In this document: positions 50,815 through 59,087 of the stretch, one piece after another
Position numbering within the stretch: position 1 is the stretch's first letter
Layout: each line of letters begins with the position of its first letter
Origin: an uncultured Archangium sp.
GTDB lineage: Bacteria; Myxococcota; Myxococcia; Myxococcales; Myxococcaceae
DNA length: 64,000 nt
Assembly: GCA_903905455.1 (NCBI GenBank)
Contig: CAIVGN010000106.1
Location: forward strand, 1-64,000
Direction: 5' to 3'
Position numbers and translations under genes: made by a program
The notes under the pieces: model-generated
Told to the model about the DNA's origin: nothing
The model's input: the letters and a program-made list of their open reading frames with translations, nothing else
Database searches by the model: none

Positions 50815-51282
50815 CTACAGGTCGAGAATCATGATGACCGCGTCTTCGCGGTTGTCCTGGTAGTAGCTGGGCCTCATCCCAACCGGCCGGAATCCCAGAG
50901 ACGTATAGAGCGACTGGGCTGCGAGGTTGCTCCGGCGGACCTCCAGAGTGGCCAACCCGCACTTCTGCGTTTTGCCTGTCGCGAGGACGGCGTCCATCAC
51001 TTTTCGGCCGAACCCGCGTCGCCGCACGGCGCCGTCGGTGGCCACGTTGAGGATGTGCACCTCGTCGGCGACCAGCCAGAAGATGGCGAAGGCGCGGATC
51101 TGCCAGCCGGCCGGCGACGACTCTTCGCACAGGAGCACCGTGGACCAGTCCTGCGTCAGCTCCTTGCGGACCATCTCGGTGGACCAGGGGTTCGAGAAGG
51201 CCTGGTGCTCGATGGCCATGACCGCCGGGAGGTCGGCGAGGGTCATCTTGCGGATGCGCGCTTCCGGAGCGAGCTCTCTCAC
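50815..51282 (-). CDS. rimI: ribosomal protein S18 alanine N-acetyltransferase-like GNAT
   Basis: A 155-residue GNAT acetyltransferase. The RimI pattern is visible: AIEHQAFSNPWSTEM at the N-terminus, VHILNVATDGAVRRRGFGRKVM (acetyl-CoA loop RRRGFG), LEVRRSNLAAQSLYTSLGF, and the tail GMRPSYYQDNREDAVIM. In E. coli it acetylates the N-terminal Ala of S18. The GTG at 51282 overlaps the stop of the SurA-like gene (GTGA). Confidence 0.9.
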   Translation of the reverse strand: MRELAPEARIRKMTLADLPAVMAIEHQAFSNPWSTEMVRKELTQDWSTVLLCEESSPAGWQIRAFAIFWLVADEVHILNVATDGAVRRRGFGRKVMDAVLATGKTQKCGLATLEVRRSNLAAQSLYTSLGFRPVGMRPSYYQDNREDAVIMILDL

Positions 51283-51959
51283 GGGGCGGCCCCCTGGCGC
51301 GGGGCGAAGGGGCCCAGGAGCCGCACGTCGACCAGGCGGCGTTGGTCGGCGAGCTCCTTCTTCACGAGGTCGCCGAAGCGCTGTTGCACGAGCATGGCCC
51401 TGACCTTCTCGAGGGGAACGTCCTTGAGTTCGGGGTGACCGGCCCGGTGCACGCGGGCCTCGCCCTCGCTGACCTGGGCGCGAAGGCGGAGCTTGCCCTC
51501 GAGGGCCCGCTGGGCCCGCAGCGAGCGCTTGAGGACCTCGGAGAGATCACCGAGGTCGGCCTCGTGCGTGGAGAGGAAGGTGGAGAACCGGGTCTCATTC
51601 TCGAAACGGCCGCGGAAGGCGGCGATGGCCCGCTCGAGTTCGCCGGCCTCGAGGGCGTAGGCCTCGAGCTTGTCTGCCTCGAGGAGCGCCAGGCGCTGGT
51701 CGACCACGGCATGGAGGCTGGCCTCGAGGACCTCCTGGTCGAGGGGCGCGAAGGCCGCCTGGACCCCGCCGGCCGCGATGAGGAGCACCCGGGCCTCGAA
51801 CTGGAGCTGAGAAAAGGCGATCACCCTGCCCTCGATCGACGCCACGGCGCGATCGATCACCCGCGGCTCAGGCTGCGCAAACGCCGCAAACGCAAAGAGA
51901 ATCAGCGCAAGGCCGCAGTGGCGCTCTTTGAAGGGCTGGTTAGTGTGCGAAGCGAACAT
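51279..51959 (-). CDS. exported SurA-N-like protein (no PPIase domain)
   Basis: A 226-residue protein with an N-terminal export signal (about 16-28, [12 protein letters not shown]). A SurA/PrsA-type N-terminal chaperone region follows, recognisable from [20 protein letters not shown] and the [14 protein letters not shown] helix. No parvulin peptidyl-prolyl isomerase domain is present. Probably a periplasmic chaperone-like protein. The ATG at 51959 has no ribosome-binding site, and its codon overlaps the start codon of the divergent J-protein gene, so the true start may differ. It is coupled to rimI. Confidence 0.7.
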
Positions 51960-52896
51960 GGCGCAGGATTACTACCAACGACTCGGTGTGACGCGCGGCG
52001 CATCTGCCGACGAGATCAAGAAGGCCTACCGCAAGTTGGCCAAGCAGTACCACCCCGATCACAACCCGGGGGACAAAGGCGCCGAGGACAAGTTCAAGCA
52101 ATTGAACGAGGCCTTCGAGGTGCTGTCCGAGCCGAAGAAGCGTCGGATGTACGACGAGTTCGGCGACGACGCCGCGAAGCTCGGGTGGGACGAGAAGAAG
52201 GCCGAGCAGTTCCGTTCCTACCGGAGCGGAGGCACCACGGGGCGCACGCCCGGTGACAGCGGCTTCCCCGGTGGTGGCGGCTCGAGCACGGCCTTCGACT
52301 TCGAAGAGATTCTCTCGCAGATGTTCGGGGCGCAGCAGCGCGGTCGACGTGGTGGCCCCCGGGCGGGCGGCGACATGAACGCCGAACTCGAGGTCTCGTT
52401 GGCCGACGCGGTGCTGGGCGGCGAGAAGACCGTGTCCATTCACGGCAAGCGGCTGTCGGTGAAGATCCCCGCGGGCGTGGAGACGGGCTCGCGCATTCGC
52501 CTCGCGGGCCAGGGAGAACCGGGGGAGCGCGGCGGGCCGGCCGGTGACCTGTTCATCGACGTCAACGTGGCCGAGCACCCGCTGGTGCGCCGCGAAGAGC
52601 AGGACCTGTACCTCGAGGTGCCGGTGACCATCGGCGAGGCCGCGTTGGGCGCCGAGGTGCGCGTGCCGGTGTTCGGGGGGTCGGTGACCGTGACCCTCAA
52701 GCCGGGCACGCAGTCGGGCACCAAGTTGCGGCTGCGCGGCAAGGGCGTGCCGGCGCTGCGCGGTGGGGCCCCGGGCGATCTCTACCTGGTGGTGATGGTG
52801 AAGCTGCCCGAGGCCCTCGACGAGGCCGCCAAGAAGGCCGTGCACGTGCTCGAGAAGCATTACGAGGGCGACGTGCGGGCGAAGTTGACGCTGTGA
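51958..52896 (+). CDS. DnaJ/CbpA-type J-domain co-chaperone without zinc finger
   Basis: A 312-residue Hsp40. The J-domain (about 4-70) has HPD at 32-34. A Gly/Ser-rich linker (about 90-140) leads directly to the two C-terminal beta-barrel domains with [19 protein letters not shown] and the [19 protein letters not shown] motif. The four CxxCxGxG zinc motifs of DnaJ are absent, so it is a type II (CbpA-like) protein. ATG 51958 matches the family start. It is followed by the HEAT-repeat gene after 30 bp. Confidence 0.9.
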
Positions 52897-52926
52897 AGTT
52901 CACCACTGGCTGCTAAGGCGCACGAC

Positions 52927-53658
52927 ATGGGTTTGCTCAATCTGTTCGGTGGTGGAACGCCCGCTGAAAAGGCGCAAAAGCTGAAGTCGAAGGCGACGCA
53001 GAAGTACGGCGATCCGGCCACCCGGCAGAAGGCGCTCCAGCAGCTCTCGGAGATCAAGCACGCGGACGCGGTGCCCGTGCTGCTCCAGCGCTTCACCTTC
53101 GTGGTCGAGCCCCAGACCACCGACGCCGAAGAGAAGCAGCACGTCTTCGACGCGATCTGCGACCTCGAAAAAGACGCGGTCGAGCCGGTGCGGAGCTTCC
53201 TCACCAGGAGCGACACGGCCTCGAGCTGGGCGCTGCGCATTCTCGACGCGGTGCTCACGCCCGACGAGGTGATGCAGATCGTCACCGAGGAGCTCAAGCG
53301 CCTGGGCGCCGAGTACACGCGCGACCCCGAGAAGAAGGAAGTGCTGCTGCGCTTCGTCGAGGGGAAGCAGGACGACCGGGTCGGCCCGGTGCTGGTGCCC
53401 TTCCTCAACGACATGTCGGACGACGTGAAGATGGCGGCGCTCAAGACGCTGGCGAGCCTGAAGTACGCGCCGGCGAAGGACGTGCTGCTCGAGCTCCTCG
53501 TCACCGAGGAGACCGCCAAGCGGGTGCAGACGGCCTGCGTGCAGACGTTGGTGGAGACGGGCTTCGAGGTGCAGGGCTTCCGCGAGAAGGTCGAGAAGCG
53601 CCTGCCCGAGGGCTACGTCGTCGACAAGTCGGGCCTCGTGAAGAAGCGCGGGGGCTGA
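52927..53658 (+). CDS. HEAT-repeat protein
   Basis: A 243-residue soluble protein made of helical pairs of the HEAT/PBS-lyase kind. Examples are ALQQLSEIKHADAVPVLLQRF, the VGPVLVPFLNDMSDDVKMAAL unit and AAKDVL-like motifs near 185. There is no signal peptide. Likely a cytoplasmic interaction scaffold. It is followed after 32 bp by the first MuiA-family gene, and probably belongs to one transcription unit with the J-protein. Confidence 0.8.
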   Translation: MGLLNLFGGGTPAEKAQKLKSKATQKYGDPATRQKALQQLSEIKHADAVPVLLQRFTFVVEPQTTDAEEKQHVFDAICDLEKDAVEPVRSFLTRSDTASSWALRILDAVLTPDEVMQIVTEELKRLGAEYTRDPEKKEVLLRFVEGKQDDRVGPVLVPFLNDMSDDVKMAALKTLASLKYAPAKDVLLELLVTEETAKRVQTACVQTLVETGFEVQGFREKVEKRLPEGYVVDKSGLVKKRGG

Positions 53659-53690
53659 GCTTCAGCTTCACCCACATTCCAGGAGGTCGA

Positions 53691-55868
53691 TTGAGCGCCC
53701 TGCCCTCGTCGTTGGATGCCGTGACGGTGTACCGCGAAGGCGCCATCTGCCGGCGGGTGGCGAAGGCCGGAGCCAGCGCCGATCGCCAGGTTCGACTGGG
53801 AGGCCTGCCGCTGTCGCTCGAGCCCGCGTCGTTGCGAGCCCGCGTGCTCTCCGGGGGCAACCGCGTGGTCGACGTGCGCCCGCAGTTCGACGTGCAGTTG
53901 GCCGAAGAGGTCGACGTGCCGACGGAACAGCGGGCCTGGGAAGAGGCCGGCGCGGCGCTCGCGCAGCTCGAGCTCCAACGCCAACGCGTCCACGCCGAGA
54001 TCGGCGAGCTGCAGGCGCTGCGGCCGTCCTTCCTCGAGCCCAAGCCCGGCGACCCGCCCCGCGCGGCGCCGGTCGACGCGATGCTGTCCCTGGGTGACTT
54101 TTCGGAGTCGGAGCTCGGCGGCCGCCTGGAGCGACGTCGCCAGCTCGATCAGCAGATCGTCGACGCCAGGGCGGAGCAGTCGTTGCGGCAGCGGCGCATG
54201 CAGGAAGCCTCGACCTCGAAGCGCGCCGAGCGGGCACGGTTGTCGCGGGTGGCGGTGGTGACGCTGGCGGAGGCCCCCACGGGCCCGGTGGAGCTGGAGC
54301 TCGAATACCGTGTTCCGGGGGCGCGCTGGGTGCCGAGCTACTCGCTCACCCTCGAGCGCGGGCTGACCAACGGCGCGCTGCAGATGCGGGCCTCGATCGC
54401 GCAGGACACCGGCGAAGATTGGGGCCAGGTGCGGCTCTCGCTCTCGACGGCCTCGACGTCGCGCCGGGCCGACATGCCGGAGCTCAAGGCCCTCAAGATC
54501 GGCCGCAGCCAGGAGGAGCCGCCTCGCTCGGGCTGGCGAGAACCGCCGCCGGGTCTCGAGGCGCTCTTCGAGTCGTACGACGCGGCGATGGGCAGTCTGC
54601 CTGCAGCGCCCACGGGCGGAGCCTTCGGTGGGCTCAAGGGCGGAAAGGCCGACTCCGATTCCCGGCCGACGCCGCGCCCCCCGCCTGCTCCTCGGTCTGC
54701 GCCGATGATGCAGCCGATGCCCATGCCCGTGGCCATGGCGCCGGGAGGCCCGCCGAAGGCGTCCCTGGCGGTGTCTGCCTCGAACGCACCGATGAGACGA
54801 ATGGAGGTCGGGGCGGCGAGGGGGGGCGGCGGCGAGATGATGAAGAAGAGCCGCAGCATGATGAAGGACCTGGAGATGGCCGAGGAGTCGGACATGGCCC
54901 CCATGGAGGACATGGCCTCGATGGACGAAGGCGGCAGCTTCGACGAGCCCGCCCCCGAGCCCATGGGCGCGCCGGCCGCGGCGCTCGACTCGAGCTTCGG
55001 CGACTACGCCCGCCTGGTGATGGGTGCGCCGGAGTCGCACGCCCAGCGGGGCAAGCTGACCTCGGCCTCGGAGTGGGACTTCGCCTTCGTGGCGGGGATC
55101 TCGGTGCAGATCGACGTGGTGATGGCCATCGTCTCGAGGGCCCAGTACGCGGCGAGCGCCGTGCAGCACCTGGGGCTCCCGGCGATGTGCAACCCGGTCA
55201 GTTCGGTGAAGTCGTTCGACTACCGCTACGACTGCGGCGCGCGCCTCGACGTGCCTTCGACGGGCAAGTGGGTGCTGGTGCCGGTGATGTCGTGCGCGGT
55301 GGGGCTGACGCCCGAGTACGTGTGCGTGCCGTCGGTGGAGCAGAAGGTCTACCGGACGCTGACCATCGCGAACCAGAGCCCGCACGCGCTGCTGCCGGGG
55401 CCGGTCGACGTGACGGCCGGCGACGAGTTCCTGATGACCACCGCCCTGCCGGCGATCGGCCCCGGGGCGGACCAGTCGCACCGCCTGGGACTGGGCGTGG
55501 AAGAGGCGATCAAGGTCGCGCGCAAGACGCAGTTCAAGGAGACCAGCGGCGGCTTCCTGGGCGGCTCGACGGTGCTCCCCCACGACATCGAGATCGAGCT
55601 CAACAACCGCCTCGCCGCGCCGGCGCTGATCGAGGTGCGCGAGCGCGTGCCCTGGGCCGACCCGAGCGACAAGGACGTGAAGGTGGAAGACGCCCAGTCG
55701 GTGCCGCCCTGGGAGAAGGTCGAGACGCCCGTCGACGGGGAGTTGGTCAAGGGCCTGCGTCGTTGGCGGGTGACCGTGCCCCCGGGGCAGACGATGAAGC
55801 TCACCGCGCAGTTCGCCATTCGCATGCCTGCCGACAAGATGCTCGTCGGCGGAAACCGGAGGAACTGA
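53691..55868 (+). CDS. MuiA-family (DUF4140/DUF4139) protein with methionine-rich insert
   Basis: A 725-residue member of the mucoidy-inhibitor A family, starting at a TTG (53691) with AGGAGG four bases upstream. The N-terminal DUF4140 domain contains SSLDAVTVYREGAICRRV; a coiled coil follows (about 85-190). The DUF4139 domain starts near 195 with ELEYRVPGARWVPSYSLTLE. It is split by a ~135-residue low-complexity insert (about 302-436) with about 17 Met residues, plus Pro, Gly and acid. The C-terminal half resumes near 460. No signal peptide seen. The family's biochemical role is unknown. Confidence 0.88.
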   Translation: MSALPSSLDAVTVYREGAICRRVAKAGASADRQVRLGGLPLSLEPASLRARVLSGGNRVVDVRPQFDVQLAEEVDVPTEQRAWEEAGAALAQLELQRQRVHAEIGELQALRPSFLEPKPGDPPRAAPVDAMLSLGDFSESELGGRLERRRQLDQQIVDARAEQSLRQRRMQEASTSKRAERARLSRVAVVTLAEAPTGPVELELEYRVPGARWVPSYSLTLERGLTNGALQMRASIAQDTGEDWGQVRLSLSTASTSRRADMPELKALKIGRSQEEPPRSGWREPPPGLEALFESYDAAMGSLPAAPTGGAFGGLKGGKADSDSRPTPRPPPAPRSAPMMQPMPMPVAMAPGGPPKASLAVSASNAPMRRMEVGAARGGGGEMMKKSRSMMKDLEMAEESDMAPMEDMASMDEGGSFDEPAPEPMGAPAAALDSSFGDYARLVMGAPESHAQRGKLTSASEWDFAFVAGISVQIDVVMAIVSRAQYAASAVQHLGLPAMCNPVSSVKSFDYRYDCGARLDVPSTGKWVLVPVMSCAVGLTPEYVCVPSVEQKVYRTLTIANQSPHALLPGPVDVTAGDEFLMTTALPAIGPGADQSHRLGLGVEEAIKVARKTQFKETSGGFLGGSTVLPHDIEIELNNRLAAPALIEVRERVPWADPSDKDVKVEDAQSVPPWEKVETPVDGELVKGLRRWRVTVPPGQTMKLTAQFAIRMPADKMLVGGNRRN

Positions 55869-55871
55869 CCG

Positions 55872-57389
55872 ATGGCCTCGTTCCCGGTGAAAAAGGTCGT
55901 GGTGATGGAGGACCGTGCGCAGATCGAGCGGCGCGGCACGCTGGCGCTCTCGGGCGTCACGAAGTTCGAGATCGAGGGTCTGCCGCTGGTCGCGGTGGAC
56001 CGTTCCCTGAAGGTGGAGGTCAAGGGGGGAACGCTCATCGACGCCAAGTTCGAGCGCCGGTGGAAGGAGCAGCCCAGGGGCGGGCTCCCGGCCGACGCGA
56101 GCGCGCTGCGCACCCGGGTGCACGAGCTCGAGCAGCAGAAGCTGGCCCAGGCCGACACCGTGGCCCGGCTGGACGCGCGGGTCGAGGTGCTGGCCACCAC
56201 GCGGGCTGACCTGCTGCGGGCGATCTCCGAGTTCACCGGGCACGGCACCAGCGACGTCGCGACGTGGAAGGCGCAGCTGGGCATGCTCTCCGACCGGCAG
56301 GCCGGGCTCGACGAGGAGCGCCGCGTGGCGCGGCAGGCCCTGGCCTTCACCGACAAGCGGCACCAGGAAGCGCGAGCCACGCTCAACGCCGCCGAGGAGC
56401 CCACGCGGAAGTTCGAGAGCGTGTTGGCGCTCACCCTCGACGGCAGCGGCGACGCCCAGGTGCGCGCGAGCTACCTCGTGCCCTGCGCCGTGTGGCGGCC
56501 GGCCTACCGGGCGACGCTCGCGGGCGACCAGGTGACGCTCGAGGCGGAGGCCGTGGTCTGGCAGCGCACGGGCGAGTCGTGGGACGAGGTGGAGCTGGCC
56601 TTCTCCACGGCGCGGCCGACCCTGGGCACGACGCCGCCCACGCTGGTGGCCGACTGCCTGTCGACGCGCCCCAAGCAGCAGATCGAGAAGCGCGTGGTGA
56701 GCGTCTCGGTGCGCGAGGAGACGATCCAGACCGCGGGGGAGACCGGTGGCGAGGCCGAGCTGCCCGGGCTCGACGACGGCGGCGAGACGCGGCTGTTGCA
56801 GGCCGCGGGCGCGACGACGGTGCGCAGTGACGGGCAGCCGCAGCGCGTGGCGCTCTTCCAGTTCGAGGCGAAGGCCGTGGTCGAGCGGGTGTGCCCGGCC
56901 GAGCTGACGAGCCTGGTGTTCGTGATGGCGCGGTTCCCCAACTCCAGCGGGCAGGTGTTGCTGGCCGGGCCGGTGGACCTGGTGCGCAACGCGGGCCTGG
57001 TGGGCCGCGCGCAGCTCAAGTTCGCGGCGCCGGGTGAGCCGGTGAAGCTCTCGTTCGGAAACGAGGACGGCCTGCAGGTGGTGCGCGACACGACCGAGCG
57101 GGTGGACGAGGCGCGGCTCACGGGTCGGCGCACGACGACCCGGTCGGTGCAGCTCTTCATCTCGAACACGCGGCCCGAGCCGGTGCGCCTGGTGATCGAA
57201 GAGCGCGTGCCCGTCTCCGAGGTCAAGGAGGTGGAGGTGCAGGTGCTGACCCGGGACTGCGCGCCGCCCCCGTCGGTGGTGACGAAGGACGGCGTGGCGC
57301 GGCTCGAGGTGGAGCTGGGCCCCAACGGCACGAAGACGGCGAAGTTCGCGTGGGAGCTCAGCGCCGCGGCCAAGGTCGCGGGCGTCTGA
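55872..57389 (+). CDS. MuiA-family (DUF4140/DUF4139) protein, second paralog
   Basis: A 505-residue relative of the upstream protein. It shares the N-terminal DUF4140 pattern (PVKKVVVMEDRAQIERRG), a coiled coil (about 75-175) and the DUF4139 pattern (SYLVPCAVWRPAYRATL, then SWDEVELAFSTARP). It lacks the methionine-rich insert. Three bases separate it from the first paralog, so they probably form a heteromeric pair. It ends three bases from the convergent folD. Confidence 0.88.
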   Translation: MASFPVKKVVVMEDRAQIERRGTLALSGVTKFEIEGLPLVAVDRSLKVEVKGGTLIDAKFERRWKEQPRGGLPADASALRTRVHELEQQKLAQADTVARLDARVEVLATTRADLLRAISEFTGHGTSDVATWKAQLGMLSDRQAGLDEERRVARQALAFTDKRHQEARATLNAAEEPTRKFESVLALTLDGSGDAQVRASYLVPCAVWRPAYRATLAGDQVTLEAEAVVWQRTGESWDEVELAFSTARPTLGTTPPTLVADCLSTRPKQQIEKRVVSVSVREETIQTAGETGGEAELPGLDDGGETRLLQAAGATTVRSDGQPQRVALFQFEAKAVVERVCPAELTSLVFVMARFPNSSGQVLLAGPVDLVRNAGLVGRAQLKFAAPGEPVKLSFGNEDGLQVVRDTTERVDEARLTGRRTTTRSVQLFISNTRPEPVRLVIEERVPVSEVKEVEVQVLTRDCAPPPSVVTKDGVARLEVELGPNGTKTAKFAWELSAAAKVAGV

Positions 57390-57392
57390 CGA

Positions 57393-58247
57393 TCACGTCG
57401 AGAGGCGGGCCTTCGCGGCGATCACGGTGTTGCCCATCAACATCGCGATGGTCATGGGGCCGACGCCGCCGGGCACCGGGGTGATCCACGCGGCGCGTTC
57501 CTTCGCGGTCTCGAAGTCCACGTCGCCGCTCAGCTTGCCGTCGGCGCCGCGGTTCATGCCCACGTCGATCACGATCGCGCCGGGCTTGATCCACTCACCC
57601 TTGACGAGCTTCGACACGCCGACCGCGGCGATCACCACGTCGGCGCGGCGCACCTCGGCGGCCACGTCGCTCTTCGAGTGACAGATGGTGACGGTGGCGC
57701 TGGCGTTGAGCAGCAGCATGGCCATGGGGCGGCCGACGATGTTGCTGCGGCCGATCACCACGCAGTTCTTCCCCGCGACGTCGCAGCCGATCTCCTGGAG
57801 CATGCGCATCACGCCAAACGGCGTGCAGGCGACGAGCGTGGGCCGGCCCTGGAAGAGGTGCCCTGCGTTGACCGCGTGAAAGCCGTCGACGTCTTTCGCG
57901 GGATCGATCGCCTCGAGCACCGCGTTCGCGTCGACGTGCTTCGGCAACGGGAGCTGCACGAGGATGCCGTCGACGGCGTCATCGGCGTTGAGCTTCTGCA
58001 CCAGGGCCAGGAGCTCGGCCTGGGTCACGGTAGCGTCGAGGTGGTGGTGCCACGAGGCGAAGCCGAGCTCGAGGGCGGTCTTCTCTTTCGAGGTCACGTA
58101 GACCTTCGAGGCGGGATCTTCGCCCACGCGCACCACGGCGATGCCCGGGGCCCGCCCGTACTTCGCGCGGATCGCATCGACCTCGACCTTGAGGCCCGCC
58201 TTCACCTTCGCCGACAACGCCTTCCCATCGATGATCTGAGCTGGCAT
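57393..58247 (-). CDS. folD: bifunctional methylenetetrahydrofolate dehydrogenase/cyclohydrolase FolD
   Basis: Interconverts methylene-, methenyl- and formyl-tetrahydrofolate. The catalytic region has [14 protein letters not shown] (active-site Lys), QLPLPKHVD, and PAKDVDGFH. The NADP-binding part has [14 protein letters not shown] and the [16 protein letters not shown] signature. 284 residues; ATG 58247 matches the family. It is convergent with the second MuiA gene and divergent from the J-domain membrane protein. Confidence 0.97.
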
Positions 58248-58274
58248 GGCCGGGGCATGTAACACTGGCCCTGA

Positions 58275-59087
58275 ATGTTGGGAAAAGTCCTCGGCGCGAT
58301 GATCGGCGCGGCGCTCGGAATGCTGCTCGCGTGGTCAGCGCCGCTGGCGGCGGTGCTCTGCGGGGTGGGGGCGTTGATCGGCCACTTCGTCGTCGATCGC
58401 GAGGTCGCGCCCCAGCCCAAGGTGCTGCGTGCCCCGTCGAAGGACGAGCTGCTCGAGCGCCCGGTGCGCAAGGCGGTCCCGGCGCGCCGGGTCGCGCCGC
58501 CTCCGAAGCAGAAGGTGAGCCTGGACGACCTGCTGCTGTTGCAGGCGCTCTGCCCGCTGTTCATCGAGGTGGCGCGCGTGGACGCGGCGCCGGTGCAGAT
58601 GGAGATCCGCGTCATCCGCGAGTTCTTCGAGCTGCAGCTGCGGTTCAACGAGGCCGCGATGGACGAGGTGAAGGACGCGCTCAAGGCGGCCATCGCCTCC
58701 CCGCCGGGGGACATCGAGCCGATGACGGTGCGGGCGCGGACCCTGGTGAAGCCCTCGGTGCGGGTCGAGGTGGTGCGCAGCCTCTACGACCTGGGCATGG
58801 TCGACGGCGACCTGCAGAAGAGCGAGCAGGAGATCTTGAAGCGCATCGTCGGGCTCTTCAACCTGGGCGACGAGCAGTTGCAGCAGATCACCGCCGAGTA
58901 CTTCGGCAAGGGCGACGGCTCGTACGCGGCGCTGGGCATCGCAGCGAGCGCCACCGACGACGAGGTGAGGACCGCGTACCGCAAGCTCGCCTCCGAGCAC
59001 CACCCGGACCGCGCCACCGACGGCGGCGACAGGTTCCGGGCGATCAAGGAAGCCTACGAGGCGCTCAAGAAGCTGCGCGGGTTCTGA
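58275..59087 (+). CDS. DjlA-like membrane protein with TerB and J domains
   Basis: A 270-residue protein. One or two N-terminal membrane segments (about 4-40) anchor it. A TerB-like helical domain (about 85-205) follows, with the ADG-type turn [11 protein letters not shown]. The C-terminal J-domain (about 213-270) has HPD at about 242-244. This matches DjlA topology, a membrane-bound Hsp70 co-chaperone. It is 27 bp from folD and convergent with the aminotransferase gene (7 bp). Confidence 0.87.

Follow-up and report, generated by a model that had tools for sequence, protein, structure and literature searches.

The paired MuiA-family genes of this locus, here called ML (long) and MS (short), most likely form a self-contained two-gene cassette, a unit separate from the J-protein gene (J) and the HEAT-repeat gene (HEAT) that precede them in the window, i.e. 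the whole stretch of 64,000 nucleotides that was analysed (probability about 0.7). J and HEAT are a gene couple of their own, found across the order. It is likely that these units, which differ in origin and age, adjoin here, and that the order of the four genes is a local arrangement inherited within part of the family. Features of the locus are listed in Table 1.

Table 1. Genes and sequence features of the J-HEAT-ML-MS locus (positions in the window)
Feature	Position	Strand	Description	Evidence
J	51958-52896	+	class B (type II) J-protein, 312 aa	Pfam DnaJ 99 bits, DnaJ_C 155 bits
HEAT	52927-53658	+	HEAT-repeat protein, 243 aa	Pfam HEAT_2 48.2 bits vs cut-off 27.7
ML ribosome-binding site (likely)	53681-53686	+	AGGAGG	comparable site at the corresponding position in relatives
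ML	53691-55868	+	long MuiA-family paralog, 725 aa, TTG start	DUF4140 34 bits, DUF4139 115 bits
ML insert, Ala/Pro/Gly/Met-rich	54588-54995	+	residues ~300-435	alignment, composition, low model confidence
MS ribosome-binding site (likely)	55858-55863	+	GGAGGA in final ML codons (..CGG AGG AAC TGA)	
MS	55872-57389	+	short MuiA-family paralog, 505 aa	DUF4140 55 bits, DUF4139 126 bits

The initial annotation described four plus-strand genes separated by 30, 32 and 3 bp, an arrangement that open reading frames and translations reproduce. Its assignment of a type II Hsp40, a HEAT protein and two DUF4140/DUF4139 proteins is borne out by Pfam and TIGR02231 scores above cut-off. DUF4140 precedes DUF4139 in both ML and MS, all matches exceeding Pfam cut-offs, and both proteins are members of TIGR02231, the MuiA family of NCBIfam (177.6 bits for ML and 246 bits for MS; cut-off 112.6). 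The J sequence contains HPD and is devoid of cysteine, and so of a zinc finger; having a J domain with HPD, a DnaJ_C domain and no zinc finger, it agrees with class B J-proteins of the CbpA/DNAJB type. It differs from them in scoring below the NCBIfam equivalog cut-offs (DnaJ 277 vs 377 bits, CbpA 191 vs 403 bits) and in that its usual neighbour in the order is a HEAT gene. The position homologous to the TTG start of ML is GTG in relatives, with a similar leader before it. A scan of 51200-58400 detected neither a sigma-70-like promoter nor a terminator-like site, a result of little weight since shuffled sequences are expected to yield only 0.1 promoters (and 2.6 terminators).

HEAT orthologs are present in 58 of 60 relatives. 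In 51 of these 58 genomes J lies upstream of HEAT on the same strand, at most 450 bp away; in six of the remaining seven it shares contig and strand with HEAT at a distance of 0.5 to 13 kb, and in one it is on a different contig. DUF4139 was detected in only 44 of the 60 relatives, so J-HEAT also occurs without a detected DUF4139 gene (e.g. in G024, G038, G045 and G054). In many fetched loci without MuiA in this position, the genes after J-HEAT encode a hybrid histidine kinase, arginyl-tRNA synthetase and a glycerol-3-phosphate acyltransferase. Upstream of J the window carries genes which we take, from their sequences, to be rimI, rpsL, rpsG and fusA, and same-sized genes recur in relatives. 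Outside the order, no J was found beside HEAT in 26 of 28 fetched loci (a near-neighbour test, with flanks of about 1.5-4 kb); in the other two, both from members of the class, J adjoins HEAT but is convergent to it. A PADLOC search for defence systems returned a weak match of HEAT only.

A profile search retrieved HEAT relatives from 181 of 195 Myxococcota genomes. The family is near-universal and mostly single-copy in this phylum, genomes of 0.5 to 2 Mb included. Divergently from J, the minus strand of the window encodes a 226 aa protein with a leader-like start (51279-51959), overlapping J by 2 bp in its longest reading. A relative of this protein adjoins J in many relatives, and it matches no Pfam family above cut-off.

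How often the two units meet was determined in 78 genomes with window-type MS (at least 690 bits). HEAT is located upstream of MS, on the same strand and within 12 kb, in 8 of them; in 20 both genes share one contig but are more than 100 kb apart, and in 50 they are on different contigs, some of these at contig edges and hence possible further meetings of the two units. All four genes occupy one contig in the window and in G003, G004, G005, G022, G159, G160 and G161, and J-HEAT-X-ML is found on truncated contigs of G002, G007, G009 and G010. X denotes a fifth gene for a Cys-rich, lipoprotein-like protein of 420-447 aa, which is placed between HEAT and ML in genus relatives and is missing in the window. 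A protein search of the window's genome gave no match to it, which is weak evidence, and X has no Pfam match. In G022, X-ML-MS is set apart from HEAT by four genes on the opposite strand. The four-gene order thus characterizes only some members of the family. In the branch that includes the window it is maintained across several genera, and the genes could be co-expressed there.

Many relatives carry X (L041:4614-5876, L042:7328-8656, L048:3826-5088 and L046:10126-11460), either between HEAT and ML or on the downstream side of HEAT. Just downstream of MS, the window encodes a TerB protein with a C-terminal J domain and hydrophobic N-terminus, resembling DjlA in layout (58275-59087, plus strand); a counterpart is also found near ML-MS in G003 and G005.

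We wondered if ML and MS form a pair wherever they occur. A collection was scanned with an MS alignment and the best 80 of 331 confirmed loci were taken, the selection being based on MS only. By record title these 80 loci belong to myxobacteria, a few "Deltaproteobacteria", one member of Nannocystaceae, one probably mislabelled "Comamonas", and to Streptomyces, Kitasatospora and Embleya. ML directly precedes MS in all 79 informative loci of this set, the remaining one starting at a contig edge. In 78 loci the two genes are spaced by -4 to +8 bp; gaps of at most 8 bp account for 28.8% of all same-strand neighbours in the set, ML-MS pairs included. The single spacing of 60 bp (L139) is probably a start miscall, since GTG directly follows the ML stop. 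J and HEAT occur near the pair in 6 of these best 80 of 331 loci, and in the Streptomycetaceae loci of the collection no relatives of J or HEAT were found near ML-MS. No third neighbour specific to the pair in both phyla was detected either, only generic kinase and ABC families being common. According to its annotation, a Streptomyces linear plasmid typed as mobilizable carries adjacent ML and MS, 6 bp apart; a second plasmid match is without usable annotation. Exceptions among the 60 relatives are G029, with a broken MS remnant and ML not called, and G014, where both genes are fragmented.

The genome of the window (8.6 Mb in 251 contigs) harbours two more long-short MuiA pairs, on contigs C81 (4205-7053) and C173 (7106-10202). 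All three pairs are alike in that the long gene is immediately followed by the short one. The C81 type differs from ML-MS in leader-like N-termini, and its first gene falls outside the ML group. The same genome encodes a 678 aa protein with a leader-like start and a partial DUF4139 match below cut-off (C121:24110; L040:5499-7535).

These distributions bear on the proposal, made in the initial annotation, that chaperone, HEAT protein and MuiA proteins make up one module. In this reading J and HEAT would help the MuiA proteins to fold or assemble, and the four genes would form one operon. The short gaps, the eight contigs with all four genes and the J-HEAT-X-ML arrangements on four truncated contigs speak in its favour. 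However, the four genes are not kept together in the genomes that have them: HEAT is near MS in a small minority of window-type genomes and more than 100 kb away in others, J and HEAT are rarely near the pair in the collection, Streptomycetaceae pairs dispense with both as neighbours, opposite-strand genes intervene in G022, and at least one gene separates HEAT from ML in the fetched relatives having both. The co-occurrence analysis proposed at the time thus shows independent distribution, one of the two observations that the initial annotation itself named as refuting its proposal; HEAT and DUF4139 also differ in their incidence among the 60 relatives. We consider a single functional module quite unlikely; no specific help from J or HEAT would be needed to account for the locus.

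The junction of ML and MS has peculiar features. In the window ML ends with CGG AGG AAC TGA, followed after 3 bases by the ATG of MS. In 77 of the 79 loci ML has AGG as its final arginine codon, and in the other 2 AGA; the loci are related by descent, so that these counts are not independent draws. Among the 9111 other arginine codons of the same genes only 3.2% are AGG, and where Arg-Arg occurs internally its second codon is AGG in 42 of 923 cases. The arginine codon before the final one varies (CGC 39, CGG 36, AGG 3, CGA 1). These figures fit selection at the RNA level for a ribosome-binding site. The protein motif GGNRR is retained also in L049 and L059, whose codons for it yield no such site, so RNA and protein levels may both matter. 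The embedded Shine-Dalgarno sequence is not universal, because the intermediate type L049 has it between the genes. As the Shine-Dalgarno sequence of MS sits in the final codons of ML, MS is probably translated by ribosomes handed on from ML. The two subunits would then be made together and in ratio.

To estimate the evolutionary relationship of ML and MS, a tree of 68 proteins was constructed. Window-type ML and MS each form one clade (support 99 and 97), as do C173-type ML and MS (support 100 each), and the branching within the clades largely agrees. The ML and the MS side each contain Myxococcus-like, Streptomyces and window subclades; the intermediate type is poorly resolved, and C81-type first genes are placed outside ML. 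Patristic distances of ML and MS are strongly correlated (Mantel r 0.944 for 25 pairs), none of 2000 permutations being as high (best 0.417). The mirrored trees partly reflect shared species history.

ML and MS profiles align end to end with 21% identity. The AlphaFold2 model of MS (mean pLDDT 85.7) consists of a beta domain, an antiparallel helical hairpin (residues 78-123 and 129-174) and a beta-sandwich; a loop at about 251-298, beside an invariant PG-DDGGE stretch, is modelled with low confidence. The ML model (mean pLDDT 75.2) follows the same plan, supplemented with the long insert, whose pLDDT is below 50 for most of residues 303-432. Structural alignments of both models against PDB revealed only generic coiled-coil hairpins and beta-sandwiches. 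Foldseek with MS gave nothing at E 0.001 or better, its best hits being oligosaccharyltransferase subunits (E 0.0037, TM 0.13-0.15), and a sequence search of PDB with MS gave nothing significant. N-termini were scored as leader-like when mean hydropathy reached at least 2.0 over 12 residues within the first 40, a crude test. By this test leader-like N-termini are absent from 31 of 32 window-type proteins (0/16 ML, 1/16 MS) and from most C173-type proteins; they are present in 10 of 16 C81-type proteins and in both single MuiA proteins.

From these sequence and model data we infer that ML and MS are likely to constitute a co-translated heteromer, and a cytoplasmic location of such a complex appears highly probable. 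Assembly would probably involve the coiled-coil hairpins and beta domains predicted for the two proteins, and the Pro-rich stretch inserted in ML may serve as a flexible arm. Coupling for dosage only, with both proteins acting in a common process and no mutual binding, is unlikely in our opinion. Coupling and co-inheritance by themselves suggest a fixed ratio, not contact, as this explanation holds; but paralogous origin, shared domain order, the end-to-end profile match and hairpins predicted in both proteins make a pseudo-symmetric dimer the likelier outcome. In the suggestion of a chaperone-assisted complex of the paralogs, the chaperone part is not sustained. The paralog complex is plausible and better founded than before, being well supported, though indirectly, by the constant tandem order, the embedded Shine-Dalgarno sequence and the mirrored trees.

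Pseudomonas aeruginosa has a single exported MuiA, with which ML and MS share TIGR02231, DUF4140 and DUF4139; a search with P0004 retrieved muiA-annotated records (24% identity, E 2e-15). Here, in contrast, two diverged, coupled paralogs are found, without leader-like N-termini and with a long Pro-rich insert in ML. P. aeruginosa MuiA is reported to belong to the SbrI envelope-stress response (PMC10418997); effects on mucoidy, swarming and biofilm are reported for it, and its role in alginate production is said to need re-evaluation (PMC10418997, PMC7603352). Family membership, this envelope-stress role and the C81-type pairs with leader-like N-termini in the same genomes would be consistent with ML-MS being an exported envelope-stress system of that kind. 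We regard this as very unlikely, because window- and C173-type proteins mostly show no leader-like N-termini in the crude hydropathy test. Whether the presumed cytoplasmic ML-MS complex acts as a scaffold, structural or related to stress, or instead as an enzyme seems to us about evenly balanced; we lean, on weak indications, towards a scaffold.

A link to Streptomyces contractile injection was also considered, SCO4256/4257 being candidate MuiA homologs. It was rejected on the published domain description: the SCO4256 type is reported to have a transmembrane helix and a ricin-type domain, which does not fit MuiA (PMC10066040, PMC10020575). The Streptomyces neighbours checked with Pfam are unrelated genes. 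In the open-licence papers searched we found no description of paired MuiA.

Myxococcota and Streptomycetaceae are two groups with multicellular development. In a more tentative reading, less likely than not, the cassette, with a second ribosome-binding site written into the conserved C-terminus of its first protein, might have been passed as a unit between these groups. It might encode a MuiA heteromer dedicated to the cytoplasm, which would differ from exported MuiA and serve both groups as a scaffold in stress or development.

Proteins of the MuiA family are widespread, and one branch of the family is a constant coupled pair. This constancy suggests that ML and MS are best expressed, purified and deleted together, Myxococcus and Streptomyces offering tractable hosts. 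Their neighbours J and HEAT merit study as a couple of their own.
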